Positions 5,641-32,608 of a DNA stretch of 34,400 nucleotides are shown here, piece by piece. Positions within the stretch are counted from its first letter, which is position 1, and each line of letters begins with the position of its first letter. The DNA is from Methanothrix sp. (GTDB taxonomy: Archaea > Halobacteriota > Methanosarcinia > Methanotrichales > Methanotrichaceae). The position numbers and the translations under genes were made by a program. The notes under the pieces were generated by a model. That model saw nothing but the letters and a program-made list of their open reading frames with translations, searched no databases and had not been told where the DNA came from. The DNA is taken from NCBI GenBank assembly GCA_003857025.1, contig RPOO01000003.1, positions 1 through 34,400 of the forward strand, in the 5' to 3' direction.

Positions 5641-5641
5641 A

Positions 5642-6488: not shown

Positions 6489-6749
6489 CTTCTCGTGACC
6501 ACACAATTGGATTCAATTGTGCCGTAATAATTTATATATTTTGTGGCGACATATGGAAAATCATCCTTAATAAATCAAATTGATTGGCATAAATTTAGCT
6601 TGATTAATTTATCTTAAACTTAGTCAATTTTTCTTGAGTATCCCGAAGATTATTTAATGCCCCAAGCAGACAAGCTACATTGCTAAAAAACAAATTAAAT
6701 TGATTAATTGGACGAGAATAGAATAGCGCAATCGAATGATGGTGAATTT

Positions 6750-8144
6750 ATGAAATTCTTGAATTGGCTGATCATCCTGGCCATCCTCTGCATTCCGGTT
6801 TATGCGGATGGCAGCCAGAGCATTGTTCTTGTGGATGAAGACGGGCGCAATATTACCGTCCCCCTGAATCCTGAGCGCATCGTCTGTCTCTCACCCGGAG
6901 CCGCCGAGGTGCTCTGCGCGCTGGATGCGCAAGATCGAATTGTTGCGGTGACAAAAGACTGTAATATCCCTTCCAGCCTGCAGGAAAAGGAGAACGTGGG
7001 CGAGTCCGGGCGCGAGGCCGACATTGAACGAATGCTGGAAATCAAGCCGGACCTGGTAATTGCCAAAACAGGAGCGCTCTTTCCCAAGGACGACGAAAAG
7101 AAGCTAACAGATTATGGGATTCCCGTTTTGAGATACAGAGTGCTGCACATCGATGCCTTGCTTCCCATGATTGAGGATCTGGGAAAGCTGCTGCAAAAGG
7201 ATGAACAGGCTGGGGAGATGAAGGACTGGATCGACGGATACTATCAGACCATCTTGGACCGGGTCGGGAAGCTGCCCGATTCCAAAAAGCCCAGCGTCTA
7301 TTTCATGTCTATGGGCCATACGGACTGGACGGGCAACAGAGCCTCCACTGGCAACACGAGAATTGCAGAGGCGGGAGGCAGAAATATTGCAGCCGACCTT
7401 TCAGTTACCGTCCCACACGTCGAGACGGAATGGATCATTGAGCAGAATCCGGAAATTATGATCTACTCCATGTCCTCCGAGCAGCACCAGGGAACCTATC
7501 CCACAATAGAGGAGATGAAGGCCAAGCAGCGAGAGATCATGTCCCAGCCGGGATTCGAGGTCATCGATGCCGTCAAGACGGGCAGAGTCTACATCACCGA
7601 CATAAACATGGCCAGCGGCCTCTCCGAGATGGTGACCATGCTCTACTACGCCAAGTGGTTCCACCCCGATCTCTTCCAGGATATCGACCCGAGGGCGGTT
7701 CATGCCAAGCTGCTGAAAAAATATGCTCACATGGACATAGGTGATATTCATCAGGTCTATCCCGATGCGCCCGTCGAGGTTCCAGCAGCTTTTGGAAGGC
7801 TGAGCACGACCACGGACGGCAATGGAGCTTTCGTATTCCATGACCTTCCTGCCGGAACCTACACCGTCGAAGCCTACAAAGCTGCTATGGGAGTCTATCC
7901 ATACATGGGAAATGCCACAGTCAGTTTGGCTGGTGATGCGGGGGGGATCAACATCACCCTGAAGAGCGCCGATGATGAAGCTGCGGAAAGGTTTGAGAAA
8001 GCAGCGGCGGATTTGGGGGAGAACGCCGGCAAGGGCACGCTCTCGGGAACCGTCTTTGGGCCTAACCGTCCCGGTGGTGATCCGTCGGTCATCCCTTACG
8101 AGGATGCGGAGGTCAAGCTGACGGAGTATGCGGCAAAAAAGTGA
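6750..8144 (+). CDS. BtuF/FepB-like ABC substrate-binding protein with C-terminal carboxypeptidase-regulatory-like beta domain
   Basis: MKFLNWLIILAILCIPVYADGSQSIVLVDEDGRNITVPLNPERIVCLSPGAAEVLCALDAQDRIVAVT; C-terminal TTTDGNGAFVFHDLPAGTYTVEAYKAA. Start set at 6750 (SD GGTGA) rather than 6708. Confidence 0.85.
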   Translation: MKFLNWLIILAILCIPVYADGSQSIVLVDEDGRNITVPLNPERIVCLSPGAAEVLCALDAQDRIVAVTKDCNIPSSLQEKENVGESGREADIERMLEIKPDLVIAKTGALFPKDDEKKLTDYGIPVLRYRVLHIDALLPMIEDLGKLLQKDEQAGEMKDWIDGYYQTILDRVGKLPDSKKPSVYFMSMGHTDWTGNRASTGNTRIAEAGGRNIAADLSVTVPHVETEWIIEQNPEIMIYSMSSEQHQGTYPTIEEMKAKQREIMSQPGFEVIDAVKTGRVYITDINMASGLSEMVTMLYYAKWFHPDLFQDIDPRAVHAKLLKKYAHMDIGDIHQVYPDAPVEVPAAFGRLSTTTDGNGAFVFHDLPAGTYTVEAYKAAMGVYPYMGNATVSLAGDAGGINITLKSADDEAAERFEKAAADLGENAGKGTLSGTVFGPNRPGGDPSVIPYEDAEVKLTEYAAKK

Positions 8145-8286: not shown

Positions 8287-9477
8287 TCAGCTCTCCTCCC
8301 AGTCGGGATAGACGAATACTCCCTGTTTGTCCAGATCCAGGCTCAAGTTCTGGAATCGTGTCAGGTACTCCTGATGAAGCGCCTTCGGGTCCATGTCCTG
8401 GAAGAGATCGGGCAGTATGACTTTAGCCGTGTAGAGGAGGCCGATGAAGTATCTCTTGTTCTGCAGCTCGGATGACATCATGTAAACCCTTTTATTCTTT
8501 ACCGCATCGATGTTGTTCCATCCGGTCAGGTTCAGGGTCTTCTCCCAGTGCAGCTTTATGTCACTGGTGTTTGTGGTGCTGTAGCCTCCGGTCTTGACCT
8601 GGCGAAGGATGATTTTTGGATTCTTGGTTATGATCTTCTCGGGATCAATCTCAGCATACTGCTTATCGATTTCATCGCCAAAGACGTTATTTCCCCCGGC
8701 CATCTCCAGCCTGACGGCAGCCCCAGCCGAATTGCCGTAGGCACCGAATGGCGGGAACTCCCCGTAGCCGAGATAGACATCCGGCCGGTCCTTCCCGGAG
8801 AGCGATGATGTTCTATCGACCACGATATTCACGCAGTCGTTGTAGAATTTCAAGAAATCATCGGCCTCATTTTCCTTTTCCAGAAGGTAGGCGATCTTTC
8901 TGGTTTCGTTATCATAATTTTCCAGGCGATAGCAGTCAAACCGGGCGATCGTCATATCTGGATCGGATTTGCTGAGGGTCTTTTGCAGTTCATCCGCCTG
9001 GGTCTTGTCCCACTGGGCGGACAGGATCATCAGATCAGGATGAAGCTCCAGCATCTTCTCGCTGTCGGGAGCGCGAGTGGACCCGATCGAGGGAAGCTTG
9101 CTCAAATCCGGAAAGAAGAGCGGATCTTCCTTTGTGGAATCGCTCACTGCGATTATCCTGTCCGATGCTCGAATGGAGCGCAAAAGCTCCTCCGCATTGG
9201 AGTTCGGTGCAATGATGCTCTTCACGGGCTTGTAGATAATAACCTCGTTGTCCAGGGAATCCACGACTTTTCGCGGATAGTTCTTGCTGATATGCTCGAT
9301 CTCGGCGTACTCATCCGTGGTGATATTCCCCTCTTTGAGGAGCTTTTCTGCATTCTTCAGCTCTTCTCCAGATACCATCCTGTCCCCATCCTGATCTCCC
9401 GGAACAGCACCCCACGCGGTGGAGGCTGCTGCCAGAAAGACAAGAGAGACCAGAATTGCTCTTAAATACTGCAACAT
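8287..9477 (-). CDS. BtuF/FepB-like substrate-binding protein with N-terminal EF-hand-like segment
   Basis: Signal peptide, AVPGDQDGDRMVSGEEL, then NEVIIYKPVKSIIAPNSNAEELLRSIRASDRIIAVSD...; C-terminal HPDLF-like signature LPDLFQDMDPKALHQEYLTRFQ. Confidence 0.88.
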   Translation of the reverse strand: MLQYLRAILVSLVFLAAASTAWGAVPGDQDGDRMVSGEELKNAEKLLKEGNITTDEYAEIEHISKNYPRKVVDSLDNEVIIYKPVKSIIAPNSNAEELLRSIRASDRIIAVSDSTKEDPLFFPDLSKLPSIGSTRAPDSEKMLELHPDLMILSAQWDKTQADELQKTLSKSDPDMTIARFDCYRLENYDNETRKIAYLLEKENEADDFLKFYNDCVNIVVDRTSSLSGKDRPDVYLGYGEFPPFGAYGNSAGAAVRLEMAGGNNVFGDEIDKQYAEIDPEKIITKNPKIILRQVKTGGYSTTNTSDIKLHWEKTLNLTGWNNIDAVKNKRVYMMSSELQNKRYFIGLLYTAKVILPDLFQDMDPKALHQEYLTRFQNLSLDLDKQGVFVYPDWEES

Positions 9478-9888
9478 GTCTTGCCCTCCATTTCGTCTCT
9501 AGCTTTTGACCAATATCACGTTCTTTCACAGAAGCTTACATACCTGTTGAATAAATTTTTCATCAATTATCTGATTTAGTAAGATAATTCTCTTCATTAT
9601 CTTGAAAGATATAACCGTTTCGGAAATCCCACTGCCACCCACCGCCGGCAGCATCGAAAAATGCAGAATGAATTTGATACATATGGGCAATTTAAACCTC
9701 GCTTTGGCATCTATTCCTTCTGAATTCAACTCATGCGGTTGCATTTGATAAACATGCATTCGATGAACAAGATTACCGGGAATGATTCGCCCTACAAGAA
9801 TCCTAAAATCTCTGAATAAATAGTCAAATTTTATATTCGTTTAGCTCTCGGAAAGATATTTATTGTTATTCATAGCAATAATAATATT

Positions 9889-10731
9889 ACTAACAGCGAT
9901 ATAATCTGGAGTAATGATCCGGATCTGTATCCGCGGCCGGTCAGCAAGACCGACATCGGAACGATCTATGAGCCAAATTATGAGGCCATAGCCGAGGTCA
10001 AGCCCGAGATTATGATCATGACGCCGGGAAGCTACATCGATCCGGTGCTGCCCAATGTCGAGCCTATGGGCGTGAAGGTGATCGGGCTCGCCCTCAATAA
10101 AGCCGATTACGATTCCGAGCTGATGCTGCTTGGATATATGGCAGGAAAATCCGAGAGAGCAAAGGCATTCCTGGATTGGAAGCAAGAGACGCTGGACATG
10201 ATCGCGGAGCGAACCGGGAATCTGGGCGAGGACAAAAGGCAGAAGGTGTTCTCAGCTACCCTTTCGTCCATTCTAAAGGGCGATAAGGAGATCTCGCCAA
10301 GCTTGATCGGACAGCACCAGATCATCGATAAAGCCGGAGCCGAAAACGTTGCAGACGGGATTCCCACCGGCAGCAAAGTGGACGGCGAATGGCTCTTAAA
10401 ACAGAACCCCGACTCCATTGTCCTTGCCTCTTACTATGTTAAGGAAGGACTGGGATACGCCGTTACCAATAAGACGGTAGCTGCAGAGACCCTGAAAACT
10501 GCGCTGGAAACCGATGTGCTCAGCAGGACCAGTGCCGCCAAAGAGGGGCGCGTTTATATTTTGGGCTACTACGGAACGGCATCAGGAGGCCAGGATTCAA
10601 TTGGAGCCGCCTATTTGGCCAAACGCTTTTATCCGGATCTATTCGGGGATCTGGACCCGATCGAGCTTCATAAGGAATATTTCGAAGACTGGCTCAAGAT
10701 ACCATACTCCGGGCTATGGGCATATCCTTAA
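9889..10731 (+). pseudogene. 5'-truncated BtuF/FepB-like substrate-binding protein
   Basis: Protein-like frame begins before the first ATG (WSNDPDLYPRPVSKTDIGTIYEPNYEAIAEVKPEIMIM...) without signal peptide or N-terminal lobe start; ends FYPDLFGDLDPIELHKEYFEDWLKIPYSGLWAYP*. Confidence 0.75.
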
Positions 10732-11052
10732 GGTTAGGCCTCAAATTCAGCCCTCAAGATTATTTCTCAAGCTTGTCCTAAAATGCGTCTCGGAATCGGA
10801 TAAATGATAATCGGGGATGGCACATCTCTCCCTTTTTCTTTTTGATGTGTTTATCCTTTCAGTTTTTATAATTAATAGTCTATTTAGAATTATAATTAGA
10901 CTGAACATAGTCATGTACTAAATCGTTATGTATCATGCAAATTTTTAATATGAAAGATTTAAGTAGTAATATCTTATCTGAAACAAAAACCAAAATTTAG
11001 AGTTTTAAAGCCATATCAGAAATAAAAAGATGGTATAAAGGTGGCTTCAATT

Positions 11053-12282
11053 ATGAATAGATGGTATAAAGTGGCACTAATACTGTGCATCTGTACTTTG
11101 GCGATCTCCCCTACGCTGGGGAGTGATACGCTCAAGGTCTTCGGCAATGCGAATATGGACATGAGAATCGACGAGAACGATCTGACATTTTTGCAGGATA
11201 TCATCAGCGGCAAAGAGAAGAGCACCGAATACGCCGACGCCAATTCGGACGGGACGGTGGATGCAAAGGACAAAGCCCAGGTTGAAGACATCATCAACGA
11301 CAAGGCAAAATCGATAAACATCAACGATTCTGCCGGGAGAGTAGTAACAATAAGCCTGCCGGTCGATAAATTCGTCTCCACTGACTACCGCACGACAGAG
11401 GCACTGCTCTCCATCGGGACCAAAGACATGATCGTCGCCGTGGACAAGACCTTCCATGAGCGCATGCCGGAGTTTGGTTTGGCCGATCGACCCGAGGTTG
11501 CCGTTCATGCCGGCGACATCAATTACGAGCAGATACTGATGCTGGAACCGGATCTCGTTTTGTTGCCCCTCAGCAAATCGACTCTCGCCCAGGATGTCCA
11601 GGACAAGCTCCAGAACATCTCCGTAGTAGTCGTGGGATGCACGGCCAGAGATACGATGATCCCGGAGCTGGAGATGATGGGACTGGCTCTCGGCAAGAGA
11701 TCTGAGGTCGATATGCTGGTGAACTGGATAAACCAGTATGACGATGCCGTCGAGAATCGCACGGAAGGACTGTCTGTGGACAAGATCCCTGCATTCTATT
11801 ATGAATCAAACTCGGATCAGAAGAAATGGACGGCCTACACTTCCCAGACCAGCGGCAGGGTTGCGGAAGGATGCGGCGGCAAGAATATCGCCTCGGAGCT
11901 GCCCGGTGCCTCGGTTGAGGTTGAGCCCGAATGGCTGATCTCCAATAATCCGGACTTTATCATCCTTGATCTGATGAAGGGTTCGGGAAGCGGACCGGAA
12001 AAGACTGAGAAGGATCTGAGCGAGCTTCATGCAAAGCTTGTGGAGGAGAGAAACGTATCCGGATTCAAATCCATCAACGCCGTCAAGAACGACAATGTCT
12101 ACCTGATTGACAGAGACCTCACATCCGGTCCGAGATGGGTTATCGGCCACGCATACATCGCCAAGTGGCTGCATCCGGATCTGTTCGCTGACCTCTCACC
12201 ATCGGACATGAACAAGGAATATCTCAAGAAGTTCTTCGGACTGGAGATCGACGGCACCTGGGCCTATCCCGAGCCCAAGTAA
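11053..12282 (+). CDS. Dockerin-like domain plus BtuF/FepB-like substrate-binding protein
   Basis: Signal peptide MNRWYKVALILCICTLAISPTLG; VFGNANMDMRIDENDLTFLQDIISG...YADANSDGTVDAKDKAQVEDII (two EF-hand-type loops); SBP domain; HPDLFADLSPSDMNKEYLKKFFG. Confidence 0.9.
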   Translation: MNRWYKVALILCICTLAISPTLGSDTLKVFGNANMDMRIDENDLTFLQDIISGKEKSTEYADANSDGTVDAKDKAQVEDIINDKAKSININDSAGRVVTISLPVDKFVSTDYRTTEALLSIGTKDMIVAVDKTFHERMPEFGLADRPEVAVHAGDINYEQILMLEPDLVLLPLSKSTLAQDVQDKLQNISVVVVGCTARDTMIPELEMMGLALGKRSEVDMLVNWINQYDDAVENRTEGLSVDKIPAFYYESNSDQKKWTAYTSQTSGRVAEGCGGKNIASELPGASVEVEPEWLISNNPDFIILDLMKGSGSGPEKTEKDLSELHAKLVEERNVSGFKSINAVKNDNVYLIDRDLTSGPRWVIGHAYIAKWLHPDLFADLSPSDMNKEYLKKFFGLEIDGTWAYPEPK

Positions 12283-12456
12283 TCTTTCGATCGCCTCCGA
12301 TTTTTTCCTTTAAATTTTTTTATTTGATATTAATAGTACTATTTATTCTTCTAATCCACATATATCGTTATCATCCTCCATTGCGATCATCCTCTTTTAT
12401 TTCTTCATCTTCATCCATTTCATTTATCTTTGCCCGAGTAAGATCAAGTGCTTTCT

Positions 12457-13314
12457 CTACACCGGCCTGGCAATCACATCCAGCTTTCCCGGATATCCGC
12501 CGAATTTCTCGATCAGCTCTCGCTTCTTCTCGTTGATGTGGTCCTTATGCCTGCCCTCTACCGAGTCCATCCAGACCTTCTTAGGCAAGATCATGGGCGT
12601 CTCCCGGATAATCTCAAAGCCGCACTTCTGGAAGATCTCATGTAGCTGGTCCCGGTAGTAGGACTTCAGTATCCGGTAAAACGGGACCTTGTTGCCGTTC
12701 ATGTTCACAAATCCCAGAGGCGAGACATCCTGTTGTCTCTCTTCCAGGGGCGGCCTGGTCATGTAAAAGCTGCCGGTCTCCCGGTCGAAGAATTCATCAT
12801 CAATTCTCAGGCTGTCCCGGACCTCTCGATCCGACATGTTGGCCCGCAAGAGGCCGTCTGGCGAGATGATCCTTCGCAGATGGCGCAGGGCCTTCAAAGG
12901 TTGCAGATCCTGAAAGACATTGATCATGATGGCCCGATCAACGGATTGATCTGGGATCGCCGGAAGCGGGTCTTGATCAATATCGGAGCAGATCGGATTC
13001 ACCTCCACGCCGCCACGGTCTCCAAGGCTTGACATCACCTTGTCCAGCATCACACGGGACATATCGACGATGTAGTACCTCTGCATCAATCCTTGCCTGC
13101 GGATAGCCGCCCTGGCGAACTCACCTCTGCCGGGTCCTATCTCCAGACAGACTCTTCCTTCCACAAACCAGGAAGACGCCTGCTCCAGCCAGTCGGGATC
13201 GTTGACGGGACTGGGGAAACGCCGCGGACGGTTCATGGCCGCGGCGGCATCATAGTAATCGGTTTGAACGCTCTTTTCGGCGGCCAGTCTTTCTATGCAC
13301 CAGTTTTGATCCAT
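12457..13314 (-). CDS. Class I SAM-dependent methyltransferase
   Basis: VCLEIGPGRGEFARAAI (motif I), YYIVDMSRVMLDKVM, SVDRAIMINVFQDLQPLKALRHLRRIISPDGLL. Confidence 0.85.
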   Translation of the reverse strand: MDQNWCIERLAAEKSVQTDYYDAAAAMNRPRRFPSPVNDPDWLEQASSWFVEGRVCLEIGPGRGEFARAAIRRQGLMQRYYIVDMSRVMLDKVMSSLGDRGGVEVNPICSDIDQDPLPAIPDQSVDRAIMINVFQDLQPLKALRHLRRIISPDGLLRANMSDREVRDSLRIDDEFFDRETGSFYMTRPPLEERQQDVSPLGFVNMNGNKVPFYRILKSYYRDQLHEIFQKCGFEIIRETPMILPKKVWMDSVEGRHKDHINEKKRELIEKFGGYPGKLDVIARPV

Positions 13315-13424
13315 TTTCTACCTCATTGTCTGAACTATTATCCTTGCTAAAAATGTTTTTGCTATTTGATGCTATCATCCGGTTGCCGGATGGTAAAGAT
13401 AAGGTGCGAAGGAATAGTAGCAGG

Positions 13425-13580
13425 AGATGCGAAACAAGGAAAACATAAGATACGAAGGCGAAAAAATATAAGATGGAAGGCAAAGAAAACATGAGATATG
13501 AAGGCAGAAAGGCACAAAGACGCCGTGGAAAAAGAGCATAAGATGAAGCGAAAAAAATCATAAAAGGCGGAGGCAAAAGA
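13425..13580. repeat. Degenerate purine-rich about 22-25-bp tandem repeats
   Basis: Reiterated GAAAACATAAGATACGAAGGCGAAAA-like units; 13600-13690 then carries CCATCCAATG-like short repeats. Confidence 0.55.
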
Positions 13581-13742
13581 GCCTCCCGAAGCTTATTGCC
13601 CTAGAATGCTCATCCAATGCCCATTCAATGACCATCCATGATCATTCATGTCCATCCAAATCCGATCCAATAATCACCTAATTTCACAATCAATGATTAT
13701 ACATGCCATATTTGTTAGCGGCTTACTTTCGACCGCTGCGCA

Positions 13743-14987
13743 TCATTTCAGCAATGGATAGCCGTATACGCCCTTAAATTCGATTCCCAGGAACTTTTGC
13801 AGCCACTCACTGTGAACGGCTACCGGGTCCACATCCTTGAAGAGATCGGGGTGCAGCCACTTCGCAACATAGGAGTTGAAGATGCTTGGGTGGATTGATG
13901 AGGCGTCGCTGGAGATGATGTAGACCCGTCCATCTTTTACCGCATCCATGTTGCTCCAGCCGGTGCGGTTTTCGATGTCCTTGATCTTGGCCTCCATCTG
14001 GGTTGTGTTCTTTGCATCGTATCCGCTGGCCGGGATGTAGGTATTGAAGGTCATCTTGAGGATTACCTGCGGATTCTCGCTGATGACTTTTTCCGAATCT
14101 ATGTCTTTTGTGCCGTTCAGATCCGCAAAGATGTTGATTCCGCCGCAGGGATCTATGGCGGCGCTGACGGAGCCGGTAGCGCCGTACTGCAGATCCTTGT
14201 AGCTCTCTGCATAAACGCGCGGCTTCTCGCTGTCTTTGAGGCCCTTAACCCTTTCTTCGATCAAAGAAAGGTGCTCATTCTCGAAGTCTATCAGCTCTTC
14301 GACCCTCTCCTTCCTATCCAGCAGCCATCCTAAACTCCTCACTTCGCCTTCGTAGGTCTCGGGCTTGTGGAAATTCATCTGAACAAGCGTGATCCCTGCA
14401 TCTTCCAGGGTCTTCCTCTGTTCTGAGAAATCGTAGGACGCATAGGCCAAAACCACATCGGGTTTGAGTTGCAGGATCTTTTCCATATCCCACTCGAAGG
14501 TAGATCCGACCACCGGCTTATCTTTGATCATGTCCCACATCTCGCCGCGCGTCTTGGCGGAATCGGTAACGGCGATGATCTTGTCCTTCACACCCAGAAC
14601 GCAGAGCATCTCCGGTCCGTAGGTTCCGCTCAGAGCAGCGATGCTCTTTATGGGCAGGTTGATCTTTACCGGCGTTCTTGCGACCTCCGGAGCCGTGGAG
14701 GGCTTGAGGTACTGGATTATGGTGAGATTCTTCTCCACACCCCGCATGATCTCATCGATCTGGGCCACATCCTTCTGATCGATCTTGCCGTCATAGTTGG
14801 CATCGCTGAGTTCTGTCTCCTTGTTTGTTCCATTGATTATTCCTTGAACGAAGACTACGTCGTCTGCATTTATGGCATCATCCATGTTGGCGTTGCCGAA
14901 AATGTCCAGCGTGAAGTCTGCTGCGACGGGTGCCGAACACAGCAAAACGATCCCCAGGACCGCCCTAGCAAGGTTTACTGCACTCAT
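13743..14987 (-). CDS. Dockerin-like domain plus BtuF/FepB-like substrate-binding protein
   Basis: DIFGNANMDDAINADDVVFVQGIINGTNKETELSDANYDGKIDQKDVAQIDEIM; SBP domain; LHPDLFKDVDPVAVHSEWLQKFLGIEFKGVYGYP. Confidence 0.9.
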   Translation of the reverse strand: MSAVNLARAVLGIVLLCSAPVAADFTLDIFGNANMDDAINADDVVFVQGIINGTNKETELSDANYDGKIDQKDVAQIDEIMRGVEKNLTIIQYLKPSTAPEVARTPVKINLPIKSIAALSGTYGPEMLCVLGVKDKIIAVTDSAKTRGEMWDMIKDKPVVGSTFEWDMEKILQLKPDVVLAYASYDFSEQRKTLEDAGITLVQMNFHKPETYEGEVRSLGWLLDRKERVEELIDFENEHLSLIEERVKGLKDSEKPRVYAESYKDLQYGATGSVSAAIDPCGGINIFADLNGTKDIDSEKVISENPQVILKMTFNTYIPASGYDAKNTTQMEAKIKDIENRTGWSNMDAVKDGRVYIISSDASSIHPSIFNSYVAKWLHPDLFKDVDPVAVHSEWLQKFLGIEFKGVYGYPLLK

Positions 14988-15095
14988 GTTTCATCATCCT
15001 TTTTCATACTTAAATTGATAATGATATGATTTGATTGCCTATTTTAATTTAATGCTTAAAACTAAATTGTAAATTTGTTAGCCAGAGTGAGAATA

Positions 15096-15159
15096 TTGTG
15101 CATTTGTCGTTTTGTGCATTTGTCATTTTGTGCATTTGTCATTTTGTGCATTTGTCATT
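15096..15159. repeat. Four tandem copies of a 16-bp unit TTGTGCATTTGTC(G/A)TT
   Basis: Units at 15096-15111, 15112-15127, 15128-15143, 15144-15159; only one base differs (G in the first copy). Located between divergent SBP genes. Confidence 0.97.
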
Positions 15160-15366
15160 TTGGCGCTGATATTTTGAAAAATGGAAGAGATGTCTAAACA
15201 CCCCGAAATCCGCTCGATCACTATCGGCGAACTATTGATTTTATTTTATAATATTGTATGCAAATCAAACCACCCGAAAAGGCTATATTGTGCTACAAAA
15301 TATCTGAATTTATCATATGAATATACCATAAAATATGATAAAATACATAGACAATTTAGAGGTAAT

Positions 15367-16647
15367 ATGATTGCAGGTTTTAGAATCGTGCCGATCATTT
15401 TTTTGATCCTGGCAGTGAACGTCCCGGCATGGAGCGCTTCGGCTGAGGATCTGAAGAGAAATGATGCATCCGGGAACTTCACCCTGGAGATATTCGGAAA
15501 CGCCAATATGGATAATGTCATAGACGAAAAAGATGCCGTTTTCGTTGATGGAATTATTAAAGGTGCAAATTCGCCCACCAACCTCAGTGACGCCAATTAC
15601 GACGGCAAAATAGATCAGTTCGATATCGTGCAGATCGAACTGATCATAAAAGGAGCGGAAAAGAATCTTACCATAATGGACAGCAAGGGAGACATTGTCA
15701 CCATAAAAAAGCCGCTGAAAAGAGTTGTTGCTCTGAGCGATGATGCCGTGGAGATTCTCAGGTCCATTGAGGCAGATGCATCCCTGGTAGGAGCAGAGTC
15801 CAGGGTTATGGATAATAGAGAATTCTTTGGAGCATTGAGCGATCTTCCGACGGTCGGGAAGTGGAACGATCCCGACGTGGAAGCGATCCTCAAGCTCAAT
15901 CCCGATGCCGTCATCTGCTATATGGAATATCCATCTAAAGAAAAATTAGAGGATAAAATTCCATCCACAATTCCCATCTTGCGCTTCGAATGCGATGATC
16001 CCGACAAGATCGACCGGGAGGTATACACCCTTGGATATATCTTCGACAGGCGAAATGAATCTCTGCAGCTCATGGACTTTTATGACCAAGCCGTCTCGCA
16101 GGTTAGCAGGAAGGTTTCAGGCATGAAGGATGCGGATAAGCCCACCGTCTTCATGGAGTGGTCCACTGAGAAGTACAAGAGCTTTTCCAAAGGAATGTCG
16201 TTTGACATAGTCTGCACCATGGCCGGCGGAAAGAACATAGTTGCAGATCTGGGGGGCAAGTATAACACAAAATATCCCACATTGGATGAGGAGTGGGTGA
16301 CGAAGCAGAATCCGCAGTTTTTCATTCACATGAGCGCCAAAACAGATGGCGGTTACGCCTCAGAAGATCCTGCAAAGATGGCTGCCACCTACAATGAGAT
16401 CATGAACAGAACGGCTCTGACCAATGTAGCAGCAATTCAAGACAGGAACGTGTATGTGCTGTCTGCCTGGGAGATTCTCGATACTCCGAGGTTCTTCGTG
16501 GGTCTCGGCTACATGGCAAAGATCCTTCATCCCGATCTCTTCCGGGAGCTTGACCCGAAGATGCTCCAGGAAGAATATTTGCAGCGTTTCCAGAAGATAC
16601 CCTATCAAGGAGTGTACATCTACCCTCAGGATATTTCTGGCCGATGA
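15367..16647 (+). CDS. Dockerin-like domain plus BtuF/FepB-like substrate-binding protein
   Basis: Start at 15367 preferred (AGAGGTAATATG; MIAGFRIVPIIFLILAVNVPAWSASA); FGNANMDNVIDEKDAVFVDGIIKG...SDANYDGKIDQFDIVQIELIIKG; SBP domain. Confidence 0.9.
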   Translation: MIAGFRIVPIIFLILAVNVPAWSASAEDLKRNDASGNFTLEIFGNANMDNVIDEKDAVFVDGIIKGANSPTNLSDANYDGKIDQFDIVQIELIIKGAEKNLTIMDSKGDIVTIKKPLKRVVALSDDAVEILRSIEADASLVGAESRVMDNREFFGALSDLPTVGKWNDPDVEAILKLNPDAVICYMEYPSKEKLEDKIPSTIPILRFECDDPDKIDREVYTLGYIFDRRNESLQLMDFYDQAVSQVSRKVSGMKDADKPTVFMEWSTEKYKSFSKGMSFDIVCTMAGGKNIVADLGGKYNTKYPTLDEEWVTKQNPQFFIHMSAKTDGGYASEDPAKMAATYNEIMNRTALTNVAAIQDRNVYVLSAWEILDTPRFFVGLGYMAKILHPDLFRELDPKMLQEEYLQRFQKIPYQGVYIYPQDISGR

Positions 16648-16731
16648 CGGCGATAAAGCCAGACTGCTTGATGGTTTTTTATTTTTTTTCGATCTGTGAC
16701 ATCATGAAATAACACTGCATGTGGAGGAAAT

Positions 16732-17931
16732 ATGAGAAAACACGTAAAGGAACTGGTGATGCTGGCGATCTTGGGAGTATTTTTATCGCCCTGCTGTGCG
16801 GCAGTCCCCGGAGACCTGGATGGAGACAGGATCGTATCGGACCAGGAGCTTGAAGCGGCCAAACAGGCGAGCCTGAAAGGAGAAATGAATTCGTCCCAGC
16901 TTGCGGAGATCGAGCATATTCATGATTATTATCCGAGAGAAGTCGTTGATGGCAACGGCCAGAATATCACTCTCTATTCGCCGTTGAAGCGAATTGCCTG
17001 CTTCCATGCCCAGGCTGTTGAGGTCTTGCGCACACTGAAATCAGGGGATAAGATTGTCGGCATCAGCCCGCAGGCCCAGAAGGAGCAGGCCGATTTTTTC
17101 CTGGAGCTTTCCAAGCTTCCCGGAATTGGGTCTACCACGGCCCCCGATCTTGAAGCTACTTTGGCCCTTCACCCGGATGCGGCGATCCTGTACAATACAT
17201 ATCAGACCACCGAATGCGAAACACTCCAAAAGGCGATTGAGAAGATCGATCCCGGCATCGTTGTGCTTCACTTCGATTGCTATAAGCCGGAATACCATAT
17301 CAGCGATGTGGAGAAGCTGGGAGCGATCATGGAGAAAGAGAATGAAGCTGAGGAGTATCTTAAATTCTACAAAGACCTGATCGGCAAGATCAATTCGACC
17401 CTGAAGAAGGTGAAGAGTGATGAGCAGCCCAGGGTTTATCTGGAGAGCTCGAACGATTATAATTCCTGCGCAAAAGGCTCGGGCTACCATCAGAAGATCG
17501 CCATGGCTGGTGGGGACAATATCTTCGCAAACCTCGGCGCGCAGTATCCGGTAGTTGATCCGGAAGCGGTATTGGTAAAAGATCCCGAGATTGCAATAAA
17601 GCTGGTCGGGCATTCCAATTCAAGCATCGCAAACGGATACTCGGTGGACGATCCAAGCAGCATGGAGGCAGTCAGGGAGCGCATGATGAACAGATCCGGA
17701 TGGTCAAATCTCACTGCCGTCAAGAACGACCAGGTTTATATTATCTCCAATGAGATCTACGGCGGCTCTCATTTCTTCGTTGGGGTCTCATATCTGGCAA
17801 AAGTCTTCTATCCGGACCTCTTCGAGGATCTTGATCCCAGGGAAATCCACCAGGAATACATAACCCGCTTCCAGGGAATGGATTTGGATCTGGATAAACA
17901 TGGAGTGTTCTTTGTTCCGGAGTTAGACTGA
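16732..17931 (+). CDS. BtuF/FepB-like substrate-binding protein with N-terminal EF-hand-like segment
   Basis: SD GGAGGAAAT before ATG; AVPGDLDGDRIVSDQEL; SBP domain; FYPDLFEDLDPREIHQEYITRFQGMDLDLDKHGVF. Same subfamily as 8287-9477. Confidence 0.9.
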   Translation: MRKHVKELVMLAILGVFLSPCCAAVPGDLDGDRIVSDQELEAAKQASLKGEMNSSQLAEIEHIHDYYPREVVDGNGQNITLYSPLKRIACFHAQAVEVLRTLKSGDKIVGISPQAQKEQADFFLELSKLPGIGSTTAPDLEATLALHPDAAILYNTYQTTECETLQKAIEKIDPGIVVLHFDCYKPEYHISDVEKLGAIMEKENEAEEYLKFYKDLIGKINSTLKKVKSDEQPRVYLESSNDYNSCAKGSGYHQKIAMAGGDNIFANLGAQYPVVDPEAVLVKDPEIAIKLVGHSNSSIANGYSVDDPSSMEAVRERMMNRSGWSNLTAVKNDQVYIISNEIYGGSHFFVGVSYLAKVFYPDLFEDLDPREIHQEYITRFQGMDLDLDKHGVFFVPELD

Positions 17932-18057
17932 AAGAACAGAATAACTTTTTTTCGATTTTTTAAAAAAAATTAGCGGAATTTTCCCATTTTCCCGCTATAT
18001 ATTTCTTCACGCAGCCTTCGACTTAATCGCTATGTGCAGGATTTCTTTTTGGAGGAT

Positions 18058-19314
18058 TCAAGCGGGCCTGGGATAGGCAAATACGCCACGCTCTTTTAAA
18101 TCATAGTCAAGTCTCTGGAATCGCGTCAAGTACTCCTGATGAATCCCTTCCGGGTCCAAATCCTTGAACTGCTCCGGGTAGAAGAATTTGGCGAGATAGG
18201 CAACTCCGATGAAGAAGGAAGGCTTTCCGGCATTGCTATCCGACAGCATGAATACTCTATCGTCCTTCACCGCTTTTATGTTCTGCCATCCGGTTCGGTT
18301 TATGATGGACGCCCTCAGCTCTTTCGCGTCTGTCGCATTGTCTTTTTCGTATCCCATGTATTTATTTCCATGATTCGCGGTCTTTACGATCACTTCAGGA
18401 TTTTCCTTTATCACCCATTCCGGATCTACCGTGGGAGAAGATCCGGCAAGACCGAGGCCGATATTATTTCCACCAGCGATAAAGCACATATCGTTTAGAG
18501 CTGACCCATTGCTGGCAGCGGCAAAATCCTTGTTTTGCTCCAAGTAGACCCTGACCTTCTTCTCGTCCGGAATCTCACTTACCCGTTCCGCTATTTTTTT
18601 CAGGTAAGTTTCATAAAAGCTGATGAAATCGTAGGCTTCCTTTGGTTTTCCCATAAGATATCCCAGCTGCGCCATTTCCTGAGAAATATTTTTGGGCTGG
18701 TACAGGTTGAGTCCGATAACGGTCACATGAGGCTCGAGGCTCTTTGCATATTCTATGGCAACGAATGAAGCTCCATTCCACCCATAGGCAATGGCCACAT
18801 CCGGTTTCATGGATAGGATCTTCTCAAAGTCACAATTTGATCCCGATTTGACAACTGGCAGTTTGGATAGATCGGGGAAGAAGTCCTTTTTGTCCGCTAC
18901 ATACTGTTCGACGCCAATGATTTTTCCTTCCTCTCCCAGGATCTTTATGCATTCGGCAGAATGCTGATTCAGAGAGACCAGGCTCTTTATGGGGTACTTC
19001 ACAGTGACCGTTCTATTGGCCGAATCGATGAGAGTCAGGTTCTCCTCTGTTCCGCTGATGATCCTTTCGACCAGCTTGATATCTTGCTCATCGACCTTTC
19101 CGTCTCCATTGACATCGGAGAACGCCGTCCGTAATTGGCCGCCCTTTATGATTTCATTGATGTAATCGATATCCTTCTCGTCTATTATGCTGTCAAGGTT
19201 AGCATTTCCGTAGATCTTGAGCGTGAAGCTCTCGGCAAAAGCCGGGAAAACAACTAGAGACACGCATAAGACCATTGCCATTAAAGCACATCGTTTTCTA
19301 TTCATGGATCTCAT
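18058..19314 (-). CDS. Dockerin-like domain plus BtuF/FepB-like substrate-binding protein
   Basis: IYGNANLDSIIDEKDIDYINEIIKGGQLRTAFSDVNGDGKVDEQDIKLVERII; SBP domain; FYPEQFKDLDPEGIHQEYLTRFQRLDYDLKERGVFAYP. Confidence 0.9.
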   Translation of the reverse strand: MRSMNRKRCALMAMVLCVSLVVFPAFAESFTLKIYGNANLDSIIDEKDIDYINEIIKGGQLRTAFSDVNGDGKVDEQDIKLVERIISGTEENLTLIDSANRTVTVKYPIKSLVSLNQHSAECIKILGEEGKIIGVEQYVADKKDFFPDLSKLPVVKSGSNCDFEKILSMKPDVAIAYGWNGASFVAIEYAKSLEPHVTVIGLNLYQPKNISQEMAQLGYLMGKPKEAYDFISFYETYLKKIAERVSEIPDEKKVRVYLEQNKDFAAASNGSALNDMCFIAGGNNIGLGLAGSSPTVDPEWVIKENPEVIVKTANHGNKYMGYEKDNATDAKELRASIINRTGWQNIKAVKDDRVFMLSDSNAGKPSFFIGVAYLAKFFYPEQFKDLDPEGIHQEYLTRFQRLDYDLKERGVFAYPRPA

Positions 19315-20687: not shown

Positions 20688-21596
20688 TCATGCAACTACC
20701 GGTATCCCGGCCTTTCTTCGGGTCTCCTCTCGAATCTTCTGTGCCATTACGGCAAGGTTCTCCCTGGAAAGGGGCTTGGGAACCACGGTCTCTCCGCTCT
20801 CCAGGATCGACCGGGCCAGAATTCTGAACCGCTCTGCCGCCTGGGAATTGGGTGCGTATTCGATCACCGTCTGGCCATAAAGCTCGCTCTCCGTGATGAT
20901 GGGATCGCTGGGGATCGATCCTGTGACCCTGGAGCCGATGCTTGAAGCAAACTCCTCCACCAGCTCAAGGTTGTCCAGAGATCCGCGAACATTGTAGATG
21001 ATGCCGCCCAGCGCGGAACCGCCCCGCCCTGCGTGGCGCTGTATGCCTTTGCAGATATTGTTGGCGGCATAGATTGCCAGATAATCGGCGGAAGTCACCA
21101 CGAAGACATCATCCGCCAGCCCCTGGCGCAGAGGCATGCCGAAGCCGCCGCAAACGACGTCTCCCAGGACATCGTAGATGACCACATCAAGGCCGCTCTT
21201 GTAGACGCCAAGACGCCTGAGCAGCTCCACTGCTACCTTTATTCCCCTACCGGCGCAGCCCACGGCAGGCTCCGGCCCTCCCGCCTCCACGCACAAAACT
21301 CCCTTGAAGCCGGAGAAGACAACTTCATCCAAATCTATGCTCTTGCCCTTGCCCATCTCGGTTAATTCGAGCTTGTCTCCACCCTTTTCTCTCATCACAT
21401 CCAGTATCGTGGGAATATCTCGGTCGCCCCTCAGGTTCCTGGTGCAGTCCGCTTTGGGATCGCAGCCCACCTGCATGACCTTCTTTCCCATCTCTGCCAG
21501 AGCAGCAGCTACATTGGAGGAGACGGTGGACTTTCCAATGCCCCCCTTTCCATAAAACGCAATTTGTAAAGGCTCTTTTGCCAATGGACCTTTCAT
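20688..21596 (-). CDS. NifH/BchL/CfbC-like ATP-dependent [4Fe-4S] reductase component
   Basis: [18 protein letters not shown] (P-loop), [25 protein letters not shown] and [17 protein letters not shown] (the two cluster-ligand Cys regions). Start overlaps the upstream stop (ATGA). Confidence 0.95.
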
Positions 21597-22858
21597 GCAC
21601 TTACCTCTTCTTTATTCCGATTAAGAATTGAGTTGATGATGCTCTCGCAGATGGGCGCAATTCCGGAAAATCCGGCAAACGGCAGACCGGATAGCGATAT
21701 GTGGTCGAGAACCGGATAGGACACCCTCACAAGCGATGCCTGAAGCTTCGATGCGATCCTCTTCTCGAATGTAGAGCCGAATATCAGGCTGACCCTGGCC
21801 GCTTTCAGGGCCTGGTTCATCTCCCAGCGATCCGGCTCGATCATCAGCGTCTGATAGTGGGGATCGACTGTGTTAATTTTCTCTTGCGTGGCGAAGTTAC
21901 AGGATGATATGGCCAGCAGTTTCACATCCATTCCCAGCTCATCGCTGAGAAACTCGGCCAGGTCAAAAGCTCTTCCGCTCTCCCCAACTACGGCCACTGG
22001 TGTCGAGTAGATCCCCTGAATGAACATGTGGGCATTCTCTACGGTCCGCTTTATCCTCTCCTTCTCCCGCACCAGCACCTGTGAGTCCACCTCTTTTTCC
22101 AGAGCGCCTGCGATCAGTTCGATGAATTTTATGCTCTTCTTGAGGCCGTAAGGATAGGGCACGGATATGTAAGGCGTGCCGAACTCCTCTTGCATGGCCT
22201 TGGCACATTCCAGGCCGTCTCCGCCCAGCAGCACATTCAGCTCTGCCTGAGGTGCCCTTTGCATCTCTTCGTAGGATGAGCCGCAGAGGATGGAGTTTAC
22301 GGAAAGATTCTGATCTTGAAGCATTCTCCTCATCTCGGATAGGTCTGAGCGGCTGCAAAAGTCGTCGGCTTTGAAGCCCAGGAGGTTGATTCCCTGGCGA
22401 GGCTCGTCTTCCGATGCCTGCATTCTGGGAACGAGCCTGGAGAGAGCCTCCTCGTAGCCGAGCCATGCCGGGCCCTCGGGTCCACCGACATCCATAGCTA
22501 TCAGCTCTGCCCCGATCTCGCCCTCCAAAAGCATCTCCAAACCCTCGACGTCCTCGCCCATGATGACGGGTGCGCTGCAGTTCAATACGGAAACGGCCTT
22601 CGGTCGGAAGGTCTGATCTGCCAGGCGGATGGCTGAGGCCAGCCGCTCCTCGCCGCTGTAGACCTCGTCGCTGGCCTTCAGACCGCTGGTGAGGACTCGC
22701 ACACTGTTTTGCTCCGAGCCCAAAGTCTGCAACAAGAGAGCGCCGCAATGGCACCCGTTCCTGCCGTGAATGATAACCATGCAGTCGCTTATGCCGTGCA
22801 TCGCCCGGAGGGCTCCAACCATTTTGCAATCGTGAAGCGGATCATATATTATGCTCAT
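21593..22858 (-). CDS. NifK/NifN-like nitrogenase superfamily subunit
   Basis: [47 protein letters not shown]...[17 protein letters not shown]. Start at 22858 preferred (17-bp overlap with upstream gene) over 22945. Confidence 0.85.
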
Positions 22859-24374
22859 TGAGTGCCACCCCCGCAAGTCCCTGGAAATGGTAGTAGGAGC
22901 CTTGCTTGAATTTTCTGGAACGCAGATGATGGAACGACAACGCAACTCTGGCCCAATGGGGCGAGAGATTGTTGATTCCGCTATCGAATTCCATCAAATC
23001 AAGGAGAGGCGAGCGCACTCTCACCCTTCCCATAGCCTCCCGGAAGACAATGCACAGGTCGATGGAAGGCAGGAAGCCGACGTTCAATTTCGTCTGGGAA
23101 AAATCATTCACATCAACGGTTCGGATGCCCTCTTTGTTGTAGAAGTGAGCGATCTTTGCCGGAGCCATGACCAGATCTATTTGCCGATTTCGGAATGTCT
23201 CCAGCTCTTCCTCCGGCGTGGGATTGACCAGGAGCTGGGGATGGAAACCGTAAATCTCCGCCAGTTTTAGATTTGCTCTCTCGATCTCCTGGATGGCTCT
23301 GTCCGTCACGCCGTGAGTGAGCGTCTGGGTCCTGTAGATGAGAGCTGCGACATCAACGCCGATATCTTTGAGCAGATTGAGGCTGAAGCCGACGGGGACT
23401 GCAACTCTCACTCCTTTCAGCTCCCTGGAGAGAGTTTCAAGCCTGGATTCTGCGGCTGCACGGTTTTTCTTTATGACCGAATCCGCCTCGCCCTCACGAC
23501 CCATGATCCTGGCGATCTCTTCCAGGACGCGGCAGCTTCCGGCGATTCCATAGGGGCTGATCATCTCCGGGTCCTTCTTCTTGTTGTACCTGTCCCAGCC
23601 CGTGATTTTGCAGTATTCCACGTTCATCTTCTTCTTCATCAGCTCGGCCCAGGACATGCGGTAGCCGGTGATGTTGAGGTCCGCCGCAGCCAGGTCCATC
23701 ATATCCCTGGTGGTGGTCTGGTCGAAGCAGATTTTGTTGATCTTGATGCCCATCTGAAGAAGAAGCGAGGCCATCTCCCGGCACTTGAGGGCGTTACGCT
23801 GAGTGGGAGAGTTGATCAGATTGACGGAACCCTCATTCCTGTCCACATCCTCCCGGCAGATCATCTGATCGGCTAGGGCATATAGCGAGTCCTGGATGCC
23901 CACCGGCCTTGATTTGCCCACAAAATCGCCTGTGGAGTAAATGACGCCGCAGCCGACCTTCTCCTTTGCCTTTTGCACGACTGCATTGATGTCGTCTCCT
24001 ATCAGGTCCGTGGTGCAGGTGGTGATCACAATTATCAGCCTGGGTGAATACCTCTCGTATGCCTCGACAATCGCCTTGCCCAGCTTTTCCTCGGCACCGT
24101 AGACCACGTCCACGTTGTTCAGATTGGTGCACGGGCTGTCATAGAAGGTGGAGGAGAGAGTGAAGGGATTGAGCTTTCGCTGAAAGGCGCATCCTACCGG
24201 CCCGTGAATGAGCGGCAGACTATCCACGATCGCATTGGCGACGATCATGGCTCCGGCGATCTTGCCATGAATTGCTCCCAGGTGGTGCATGGGCACGGCG
24301 CTGTAGATGCTTCTCATGGTCTCAAGGATGGGCGCTTCATCTCTTGAAACCAGATCTTGTTCCTCTGGGTCCAT
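22842..24374 (-). CDS. NifD/NifE-like nitrogenase superfamily subunit
   Basis: LPLIHGPVGCAFQRKLNPF...SPCTNLNNVDVVYGAEEKLGKAI...LIIVITTCTTDLIGDDINAVVQKAKEK; 510 aa. Confidence 0.9.
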   Translation of the reverse strand: MDPEEQDLVSRDEAPILETMRSIYSAVPMHHLGAIHGKIAGAMIVANAIVDSLPLIHGPVGCAFQRKLNPFTLSSTFYDSPCTNLNNVDVVYGAEEKLGKAIVEAYERYSPRLIIVITTCTTDLIGDDINAVVQKAKEKVGCGVIYSTGDFVGKSRPVGIQDSLYALADQMICREDVDRNEGSVNLINSPTQRNALKCREMASLLLQMGIKINKICFDQTTTRDMMDLAAADLNITGYRMSWAELMKKKMNVEYCKITGWDRYNKKKDPEMISPYGIAGSCRVLEEIARIMGREGEADSVIKKNRAAAESRLETLSRELKGVRVAVPVGFSLNLLKDIGVDVAALIYRTQTLTHGVTDRAIQEIERANLKLAEIYGFHPQLLVNPTPEEELETFRNRQIDLVMAPAKIAHFYNKEGIRTVDVNDFSQTKLNVGFLPSIDLCIVFREAMGRVRVRSPLLDLMEFDSGINNLSPHWARVALSFHHLRSRKFKQGSYYHFQGLAGVALNEHNI

Positions 24375-24785: not shown

Positions 24786-24809
24786 AGCCGCCGCTTGACA
24801 TCCCAATCT

Positions 24810-29846: not shown

Positions 29847-30104
29847 TTATTTATAATTTAATCTATATTTTTTACGTCTCAGAATCTCTGCATCTGATCC
29901 AGGATAGAAGAGCGCCATCCACTGACATTGCATAAAGAGCTTGCAGGCTTCCGTTTCAGGAAATCCTGCATCTTCTTCGATCCCTTCGATGCAGCCAAAG
30001 CTGTCGCCCCTGCTCGATAATTCCACACAGCCCCGCCTCTCCTCTGCTTGCGCTCTTCTCACGGGATGGCCGGAGAAGAGCCTCTCAATAATGCTCTTCA
30101 GCAT
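29847..30104 (-). CDS. Small Cys-containing protein of unknown function (85 aa)
   Basis: MLKSIIERLFSGHPVRRAQAEERRGCVELSSRGDSFGCIEGIEEDAGFPETEACKLFMQCQWMALFYPGSDAEILRRKKYRLNYK; overlaps the btuC-like stop by 7 nt. The longer supplied ORF (to 30473) is antisense-frame noise upstream of this start. Confidence 0.65.
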   Translation of the reverse strand: MLKSIIERLFSGHPVRRAQAEERRGCVELSSRGDSFGCIEGIEEDAGFPETEACKLFMQCQWMALFYPGSDAEILRRKKYRLNYK

Positions 30105-31213
30105 GATTTCTTCCTCCGTTTCATGAAGAGATAAACGAAAAGCGGCACCCCGAGAAGGGATGTCATCAGGCCCACCGGCAGGACTGCCGGAGCGAAGACC
30201 GTCTTGCCCACGGCATCGGCTCCCAGGAGCAGCAAGGCCCCCATCAGGGCTGACGTCAGCAAGAGAAAACGATGATCTCCGCCGATGACTATGCGGGCCA
30301 TGTGAGGAGCCACGAGGCCGATGAAGCCGATGGTTCCAGTGAACGATATGATGGCAGCCGTGATGAGCGAGGCGATAGTCATGGTGGCCATTCGGGTTTT
30401 GTTGATATCGACGCCGAGGCTGGTGGCAATCTCGTCTCCCGACTCCAGGGCATTTATGTCCCAGGATTTCCACAAGAGCCAGGGAAGGCAGAGGGCCACG
30501 ACGACGAAGACCAGGCCGACGCTGTGCCAGGTCGATCTGCCCAGGCTTCCCATAGTCCAGAAGACCAGGGCGTGCACATCCTCAGAGCGGCCTACGTACT
30601 GCAGAACGGAGGTCAGGGCCGAGAAGAAGTACATGATGGCAATTCCCGCCAAAACCATTGATTCGGATGAGATGCCTTTGATCTCGGCCAGGACAAAGAC
30701 GGCTGCTGCTGCTATCAGAGAGAATATGAAGGCATTCAGGACGATGAGGTACTCGCCGCCCGCCAGCCCGGCCCCGAGAATGATGGCCAGGGCCGCCCCA
30801 AAGCTCGCTGCAGACGATATGCCGAGCGTGAAGGGACTGGCCAGGGGATTTCGCAATATGCCCTGCATGGCTGCACCGGCTGCGGCCAGCCCCATGCCGG
30901 CCAGGATGCCCATGATGATCGGAGGCAGCCTCAACTCCCAGACGACCATCTCACCCAGCCATGAGGCCTGAAAGTAGCCTGGAAATGCTCTGGCCAGCAC
31001 GGCGGCGTAAACATCGGCAAGCGTCAATCCTGATGAGCCCAGGGTTGCCGATAGTCCCGCCAGCAAAATGAGTGAGAGGAAGAGGACGGCGGCCAAAAGC
31101 AGCTTTCGTTTTACGAATCCTTTATAAACCAGCCCGATGCTGTCGGCATCTCTTTTGCCGACGGCTGCATCGGAGAGATTCGCCCCCTGCGAAACAACAT
31201 CAGATGATGCCAT
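30098..31213 (-). CDS. btuC: BtuC/FecCD-family ABC transporter permease
   Basis: Multi-TM; AMQGILRNPLASPFTLGISSAASFGAALAIILG, GSLGRSTW, FTGTIGFIGLVAPHMARIVIGGDHRFLLLTSALMGALLLLGADAVGKTVFAPAVLPVGLMTSLLGVPLFVYLF. Start at MASSDVV preferred over 31402. Confidence 0.93.
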   Translation of the reverse strand: MASSDVVSQGANLSDAAVGKRDADSIGLVYKGFVKRKLLLAAVLFLSLILLAGLSATLGSSGLTLADVYAAVLARAFPGYFQASWLGEMVVWELRLPPIIMGILAGMGLAAAGAAMQGILRNPLASPFTLGISSAASFGAALAIILGAGLAGGEYLIVLNAFIFSLIAAAAVFVLAEIKGISSESMVLAGIAIMYFFSALTSVLQYVGRSEDVHALVFWTMGSLGRSTWHSVGLVFVVVALCLPWLLWKSWDINALESGDEIATSLGVDINKTRMATMTIASLITAAIISFTGTIGFIGLVAPHMARIVIGGDHRFLLLTSALMGALLLLGADAVGKTVFAPAVLPVGLMTSLLGVPLFVYLFMKRRKKSC

Positions 31214-31419
31214 TTTCTCTATTGCCCCAGATTCTTTATTTTGCCATTTTGCCAACGACACGATACAGCGAATGGATGCAGCGAATGGATACCGCAAAGG
31301 ACAGAGCAAAAGGACTGGGCGTAAGGAAAAGCGAAAGAATACGGCGATTGTTGGCCGCCCGCCTCCGACAGCTTGACCCAAATCGCTAACCTCTGCCGCC
31401 AAATCCCATCCCGCAAATT

Positions 31420-32553
31420 CTATCCAACCTCCGGATAAACGAAGCTTCGTCCTTCCTGCCAGGAGACATCCAGGAATGCCAGATATTCCCTGTAGACCTG
31501 AGCGGGATCGATATCGATCTTTGGATGAAGTATCTTGGCAAGACTGGCAATTCCCACCGGCAGGTCGGGCCCAACGGTCGCATCCACGCTGAGCACGTAA
31601 ACCCGATCATTGCTGATGGCCGGGATCTTCGTTCCGCCGGGGCGGCTGAGGATATTGTTTCGGATCTCTTTTAGTTTCGTTGCAGAAACGGAATCTTCCA
31701 TCGACCAGCCGGGCATCCCGTCCTTCGAGGTTAAGGGCTGGTGCTTTATGATCACATCCGGGCTTTTCGCCGCCACCCACTCCCAGGCAACCTTGGCCGA
31801 TTCGGTCCCTTCCTGGAAGATGCAAACGCCGCCTGCCTCGTTCACCATCCGGCTCATGGCCGAATGGCCGCCGTAAGTGGAGAGATCGCTTAAGGCTCCC
31901 GAGGAGCCCATGCTCTCGAAAAAGACCGTCGCCGGTGCAAGTCCCTGCACGGCCTTCTCGGCCTTCTCGACCTCGCCGTCATACCATTGCAGATACTCCT
32001 TTGCCTCGCTCTCCTTTCCCAAAATTTCTCCGAGCTTGGTCATCTCTTCCCGGATCTTCTCCGGCTCATAAAAGTTCAGGCCGATAACAGTTATGTTCTT
32101 GAAGGCGGAGAGCTTCATCGAGACCGTATCCGCTCCCATTCCGTAAGCTCTGTCAGGCGCGGTGTAGCAGAGGACTATGATGTCGGGAGTGATTTTGTCA
32201 CCCTGTTCTGCGACCTTGACAATCTTCTCATAGTCAACCTCCGTCCTGGACCCCACGCCGACTGCATCCTTTATGCTCGGATAGTAGCCGCCCTTGCCCA
32301 GAACCTGATCGACAGCCCCCACAATCTTGTCGCCGGAGCCGAGGATGACGACGGCCTCGGCTGCGTTCTCATTCAGTACTACTATCCTTTGCACCGGGGC
32401 CTGAATGACAACCGGCCTGTTCTCCGAATCGATGAATGTCATCGGGTACCCTGATCCGGTGCTTTCGGATGCTTGAGAAGGATTCGCAAAAAGACTCAGA
32501 AGAATTATTGATAGGATTGATATGATTGAAGCTCTTGCTCTTCTTTTTTTCAT
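31420..32553 (-). CDS. BtuF/FepB-like ABC substrate-binding protein (no dockerin)
   Basis: MKKRRARASIISILSIILLSLFANPSQASES signal; YPMTFIDSENRPVVIQAPVQRIVVLNENAAEAVVILGSGDKIVGAVDQV; directly upstream of the btuC-like gene on the same strand. Confidence 0.88.
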   Translation of the reverse strand: MKKRRARASIISILSIILLSLFANPSQASESTGSGYPMTFIDSENRPVVIQAPVQRIVVLNENAAEAVVILGSGDKIVGAVDQVLGKGGYYPSIKDAVGVGSRTEVDYEKIVKVAEQGDKITPDIIVLCYTAPDRAYGMGADTVSMKLSAFKNITVIGLNFYEPEKIREEMTKLGEILGKESEAKEYLQWYDGEVEKAEKAVQGLAPATVFFESMGSSGALSDLSTYGGHSAMSRMVNEAGGVCIFQEGTESAKVAWEWVAAKSPDVIIKHQPLTSKDGMPGWSMEDSVSATKLKEIRNNILSRPGGTKIPAISNDRVYVLSVDATVGPDLPVGIASLAKILHPKIDIDPAQVYREYLAFLDVSWQEGRSFVYPEVG

Positions 32554-32608
32554 CTCGTTTCTCATCCCTGTTTTCATCCCGGCCCAACTAATCAATTTTG
32601 TTGGACTA

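Follow-up and report, generated by a model that had tools for sequence, protein, structure and literature searches.

Dockerins are normally taken as the sign of a cohesin partner. The type I dockerins (PF00404), such as those of C. thermocellum CelS and Xyn10B/XynY, are built from two F-hand calcium loops with helices, and in the cellulosomal pattern a flexible linker lies between dockerin and cargo. In anaerobic methanotrophic (ANME) archaea, which are related to the archaea studied here, Chadwick et al. (2022, PMC9012536) report dockerins on substrate-binding proteins (SBPs) of ATP-binding cassette transporters alongside cohesin scaffoldin-like proteins, so the dockerin-SBP fusion itself is already known. 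Table 2 of Timmers et al. 2017 (PMC5244752), which gives counts only, lists Methanosaeta concilii GP6 with 17 dockerin entries and no cohesin entry. Here we describe the same dockerin-without-cohesin pattern in a draft genome of Methanothrix sp. (GCA_003857025.1; 3.16 Mb in 379 contigs, ~91% complete), whose nearest named relatives are Methanothrix/Methanosaeta. The window, a stretch of 34,400 nucleotides that makes up the entire contig RPOO01000003.1 (C17), encodes class III SBPs with a dockerin-like module at their N terminus. The ANME SBPs are of the NikA/OppA and TroA types and come with cohesins, whereas the proteins described here are Peripla_BP_2 only and come with none that we could recognize. 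The open-licence literature yielded no description of such a cohesin-less, SBP-only situation, and nothing on dockerins with periplasmic binding proteins and calcium or on Methanothrix SBPs with the sheath. We propose that a dockerin domain has been reused here in cis as a calcium-stabilized mount, a reading to which we give about an even chance of being correct.

A dockerin-like module without a recognizable cohesin

Open reading frames, Pfam matches and profile searches all confirm that four SBPs of the window begin with a two-loop module, as the original prediction had read from the DNA letters. Peripla_BP_2 (PF01497) matches all four at E 1e-21 to 1e-26. Dockerin_1 (PF00404) matches their N termini more weakly (E 9.6e-5, 5.7e-4, 0.032 and 0.057), and only the 18058 protein among them reaches the cut-off, at 23.0 vs 22.9 bits. 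A module profile made from the genome's own genes (A1) re-finds the four sites in a whole-genome search at E ~1e-33 to 1e-38, well past what chance would give; these four modules helped build A1, and relatives in other genomes score equally. Across the genome there are 13 places with PF00404 matches, seven of them over the gathering score, which belong to 12 genes, as two matches with the same sequence, located at contig ends (C106 and C220), were counted as one split gene. The modules of all 12 are of one kind. Eleven of the genes can be traced into a class III SBP, and the remaining gene, on C48, is truncated within the module by the contig end.

The first loop reads N-x-N-x-D-x-x-I-D/N-x-x-D and the second D-A-N-x-D-G-x-I/V-D-x-x-D. 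In a conservation set of 61 non-redundant Methanotrichaceae module proteins, the spacing from loop to loop is 30 residues in every case, and each of ten calcium-ligand positions is 87-100% one residue. Conservation extends beyond the ligands to Met/Leu at loop-1 position 4 (84/16%), Tyr/Phe22 and Gln52. We modeled single chains with AlphaFold2, without calcium. The model of the module alone is of moderate confidence (predicted local distance difference test score, pLDDT, 77.7; predicted template modeling score, pTM, 0.65), and its matches in the PDB at ranks 1-21 are all dockerins, with a best probability of 1.00 and a root-mean-square deviation of 1.5-2.8 Å; given the small size of the domain, the E-values of these matches get no better than 0.1. 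By sequence, the best PDB match of A1 is the CelS dockerin 1daq (E 0.001). The duplicated dockerin-type loops of the original prediction are thus borne out by spacing and by fold. A chance EF-hand-like stretch was rejected on the exact spacing, the ligand conservation and the fold match. These data support a dockerin-fold, two-loop domain fused to class III SBPs, as far as a predicted structure can identify it, and its loops probably bind calcium. Compared with type I dockerins, the module sits N-terminally on an SBP, without a flexible cargo linker and in a genome without a detected cohesin. Its loop-1 signature is GNAN(M/L)D, and loop positions 10-11 are mostly E/Q followed by a variable residue.

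The fusion had been considered unusual, but it is not rare. Our comparison set comprised 240 genomes of the class, including 50 Methanotrichaceae, with the near-closed G206, G201 and G236 among them. A1 matches 68 of the 240, and 34 of the 50 Methanotrichaceae. In five more genomes of the family, all 25 PF00404 matches are SBP-type modules. Of 79 modules in seven genomes, 75 directly precede a PF01497 match among the matches listed, and two of the other four (L142 and L147) score as SBPs with an SBP profile of our own. Class III SBPs are the only cargo that we found bearing the module in Methanotrichaceae. The highest count per genome is 48 module matches, in G203 of the same family; this 2.6-Mb genome also has 69 Peripla_BP_2 matches, and many lie in tandem arrays (contigs C78 and C23).

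Cohesins were sought throughout with hidden Markov models, and the genomes are drafts. In the Methanothrix genome, neither PF00963 nor A4, a profile made from 11 archaeal cohesins, found a cohesin at E<=10. At E<=0.001, PF00963 detects cohesin in 118 of the 240 genomes of the class, and therefore the search works; at the same threshold it detects none in any of the 34 Methanotrichaceae genomes that have the module, some of which are near-closed. The only cohesin-bearing genome of the family (1/50) is G237, which itself has no module. A4 matches G237 at E 6.5e-7 and five other Methanotrichaceae at E 0.003-0.03, the latter with short partial matches. We class the module by its fold, as a dockerin domain; the system as a whole we do not class as a cohesin-dockerin system, because cohesin was sought and not found. 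With up to 48 dockerin-fold receptors per genome and no detectable cohesin, these archaea offer a clean natural case of a dockerin without its socket.

The original prediction had noted that the window lacks a cohesin and had suggested that the modules dock the SBPs on a cohesin-bearing surface. The absence extends from the window to the genome and to nearly all Methanotrichaceae. The suggested docking is not supported in this family: the genome-wide search for both domains, which the prediction had itself proposed, returned 12 dockerin-like modules and no cohesin with either model. As a whole, the original interpretation is partly supported, in its fusion of a dockerin-like module to SBPs but not in its docking on a cohesin.

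A proposed mount in cis on receptors that outnumber permeases

The geometry between module and SBP is fixed. From the last loop residue to the first conserved SBP aspartate there are exactly 19 residues in 57 of the 61 proteins, a junction consisting of one helix and a short turn. As both this junction and the loop spacing are fixed, a flexible linker is lacking on the SBP side. For the full-length 18058 protein, the model reaches a pLDDT of 94.1 (89-98 for blocks of the module) and a pTM of 0.92. Were the placement of the 62-residue module (16% of 391) undetermined, pTM would be expected to be capped at ~0.84 or less, and module placement is therefore firm in the model. The best PDB match of the SBP part of this model is YiuA of Yersinia ruckeri, a siderophore-binding SBP (E 6e-23); PDB searches found no solved SBP bearing such a module.

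In relatives from Bathyarchaeota and Methanosarcina, the side of the module that faces away from the SBP bears a flexible stalk rich in proline, serine and threonine (P/S/T-rich; 67-82% S, T, P, Q, G, N), and in Thermoplasmata relatives a membrane-helix-like N-terminal segment precedes the module. In two single chains of the Thermoplasmata type, the whole module-SBP unit is repeated, three times in L055 (1421 aa) and twice in L053 (1054 aa). These two chains appear to be multi-receptor polyproteins behind an N-terminal membrane-helix-like segment.

Whether the segment is a separable dockerin or an integral part of the SBP had been posed as a choice, and each side proves partly right. The module has a separable fold; it is also joined without a linker through a near-invariant junction, firmly placed in the model and repeated together with the SBP. 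We rejected the segment as a mere integral strand-helix of the SBP lobe, as module-less SBPs exist and the module has a fold of its own.

The fixed junction, the firm placement, the tandem repeats, the retention of the module in relatives that are already anchored, and the lack of a cohesin together suggest a function in cis. In this model, two calcium loops would lock the N-terminal ~60 residues into a compact cap, which would pack on, or be rigidly joined to, an SBP of the BtuF/FhuD class. The cap would fix how far the ligand-binding body stands from the signal peptide, membrane helix or P/S/T-rich stalk, and in which orientation, and would need no partner in trans. In Methanotrichaceae, the SBPs may have multiplied as extra receptors, probably sharing a few FecCD-type permeases, while the SBP part diversified and the cap stayed constant.

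Gene positions and docking residues bear on this sharing. Known class III SBPs are usually encoded with a permease of their own. Within seven genomes, 1 of 75 module SBPs lies <=800 bp from a permease, vs 20 of 102 other SBPs among the matches listed (p = 9e-5, a value that is too small since paralogues are not independent). The Methanothrix genome has 27 Peripla_BP_2 vs 4 FecCD matches above cut-off, and G203 has 69 vs 12, weak ones included. The module SBPs share the Peripla_BP_2 fold and the two permease-docking Glu of the class III SBPs BtuF, YiuA, FhuD and CeuE: 71/74 and 70/74 of them retain the residues aligned to E. coli BtuF E72 and E202, respectively. This pair docks a class III SBP on its permease (PMC3741162, where the first is numbered Glu74). 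The module SBPs may thus be extra receptors that share a few permeases. Such a layout, with many binding proteins and few permeases, would be an unusual mode of uptake for major acetate-using methanogens.

Conservation of the module and possible partners in trans

Several observations weigh against a mount that acts only in cis. Mean identity is 58% in the module and 33% in the SBP. Leaving out the calcium ligands and the glycines of the loops still gives a module identity of 48%, and leaving out core-like positions as well gives 41%. A common partner in trans would be expected to keep the module more conserved than the SBP, as is seen here. Close module-less paralogues exist, and the SBP tree carries 11 changes between module-bearing and module-less labels, at least 6 of them forced by well-supported branches; because the module was gained or lost repeatedly and module-less paralogues exist, the SBP fold is independent of it. 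Outside the family, cohesin occurs in 24 of 28 strong-module genomes vs 93 of 162 others (p = 0.005), so docking on cohesins could be an ancestral trait or one at work in other lineages. In the SBP tree, the 11041 protein clusters with SBPs of its own genome that lack the module, and versions of the module with a single loop are scattered among two-loop SBPs in several places. A Mantel test shows weak co-inheritance of module and SBP (rho 0.26 within the family), which does not discriminate between cis and trans.

The strongest alternative is a receptor other than cohesin, a single surface, sheath or permease-associated protein on which the module would dock many SBPs in a calcium-dependent manner, forming a shared capture array. 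Such a receptor would fit the high conservation of the module, its conserved non-ligand positions, the retained dockerin fold and the number of modules in G203, and most module SBPs have no lipobox-like motif by a loose test. However, no candidate receptor was found, and the short rigid junction and the tandem module-SBP chains favor a unit in cis. Lipobox frequency also does not differ between SBPs with and without the module (12/68 vs 10/43, p = 0.48, with a motif too loose to settle the matter), and relatives already anchored by a membrane-helix-like segment still keep the module. We regard this alternative as possible but doubtful. A more specific scenario, in which Methanotrichaceae swapped cohesins for an unrelated calcium-dependent dockerin receptor and tens of SBPs form a shared array that feeds a few permeases, seems to us unlikely.

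Ordinary docking on a cohesin that the draft lacks, or that has diverged too far for the models to recognize, is improbable. The genome is incomplete, dockerin SBPs and cohesins co-occur in ANME archaea and in most module genomes outside the family, and archaeal dockerin-cohesin binding has been reported in literature cited by PMC9012536, as far as that citation indicates. Against it stand the lack of a PF00963 match in all 34 module-bearing Methanotrichaceae, the entry counts for M. concilii GP6, and the archaeal profile, which is convincing only in the module-less G237. The cohesin proteins inspected in relatives from Methanosarcina and Thermoplasmata give no partner identity: none of them is an SBP, and of the three from Thermoplasmata, two bear GDxNGDG-type dockerin repeats of their own. 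A relic of ancestral docking, persisting without a function of its own after cohesins were lost in Methanotrichaceae, would agree with cohesins being common in sister families and nearly absent here, with one-loop versions in several places of the tree and with several module gains and losses, but it is very improbable given that the calcium-ligand positions are so uniform across 61 divergent proteins and that a relic would decay and not remain more conserved than the SBP.

Features and neighboring genes of the window

Features of the window related to the dockerin-like module (coordinates on the contig; E, E-value)
Feature	Coordinates	Strand	Basis or remark
Class III SBP (Peripla_BP_2), N-terminal two-loop module	11041..12282	+	annotatable start ATG 11053
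Dockerin-like module of 11041 SBP, loops NANMDMRIDEND and DANSDGTVDAKD	11128..11301	+	A1 match 11128-11379, E 2.3e-34; end set at alignment A1 position 59
Class III SBP, two-loop module	13743..14987	-	Pfam matches
Dockerin-like module of 13743 SBP	14739..14915	-	A1 match 14664-14915, E 9.9e-34
Class III SBP, two-loop module	15367..16647	+	ORF opens 15181; signal peptide after ATG 15367
Dockerin-like module of 15367 SBP	15478..15654	+	A1 match 15478-15732, E 4.2e-38
Class III SBP, two-loop module	18058..19314	-	Pfam matches; full-length structure model
Dockerin-like module of 18058 SBP	19051..19227	-	A1 match 18973-19227, E 3.9e-37; PF00404 over cut-off
Class III SBP, one-loop degenerate module ~9289-9405	8287..9477	-	sequence PGDQDGDRMVSGEEL; aligned
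Class III SBP, one-loop degenerate module ~16804-16920	16732..17931	+	sequence PGDLDGDRIVSDQEL; aligned
FecCD/BtuC-type permease, sole one in window	30098..31402	-	PF01032 at C17:30119-31072, 292 bits
SBP without module, permease-linked (contrast case)	31420..32595	-	Pfam matches and FecCD neighbor

The two one-loop versions, which had been overlooked in the original prediction, keep the first loop only, as PGDxDGDRxVS. Remnants of SBPs within 5254-6127 and 9841-10731 are likely pseudogenes or sequencing frameshifts: 5444-6127 (-) encodes an N-terminal SBP piece whose frame is lost, and 9898-10731 (+) an SBP without a recognizable signal peptide or N terminus. The SBP at 6708-8144 (+) has an unusual extension, a C-terminal carboxypeptidase-regulatory-like beta-sandwich (PF13620, E 2.5e-6, below cut-off). 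Such C-terminal beta-sandwiches were considered as cohesins and rejected, as they match carboxypeptidase-regulatory-type models.

Family models of siderophore, heme and B12 binders all score the module SBPs far below their curated cut-offs. Nearby chelatase genes point to a corrinoid, heme, another tetrapyrrole or a metal chelate as the ligand. A CbiK-type cobalt chelatase (PF06180, E 6e-81) is encoded at 33319-34254 (-), near SBP and FecCD genes; it appears to have a signal peptide and is therefore probably extracytoplasmic. At 20688-28991 (-), a NifH-like protein, two nitrogenase-component-1-like proteins and a 1393-aa CobN/BchH-like chelatase are encoded together, in a methanogen. The nearest models of the component-1-like proteins are NifE and the protochlorophyllide reductase BchB, with scores far below the cut-offs; the chelatase exceeds the curated cut-off for the magnesium chelatase BchH (885 vs 829 bits). 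From these model matches, we read the genes as a putative tetrapyrrole-modifying cluster.

Two further genes lie near the start of the contig. The product of 3579-4400 (+), which follows a ParA-like ATPase (2839-3582), carries an extended run of imperfect (T/S)xESGV-type repeats and has no Pfam match. The gene at 968-2560 (-) encodes a secreted-looking protein with a peptidase M23 match (PF01551, E 1.4e-10), in an archaeon that should lack murein.

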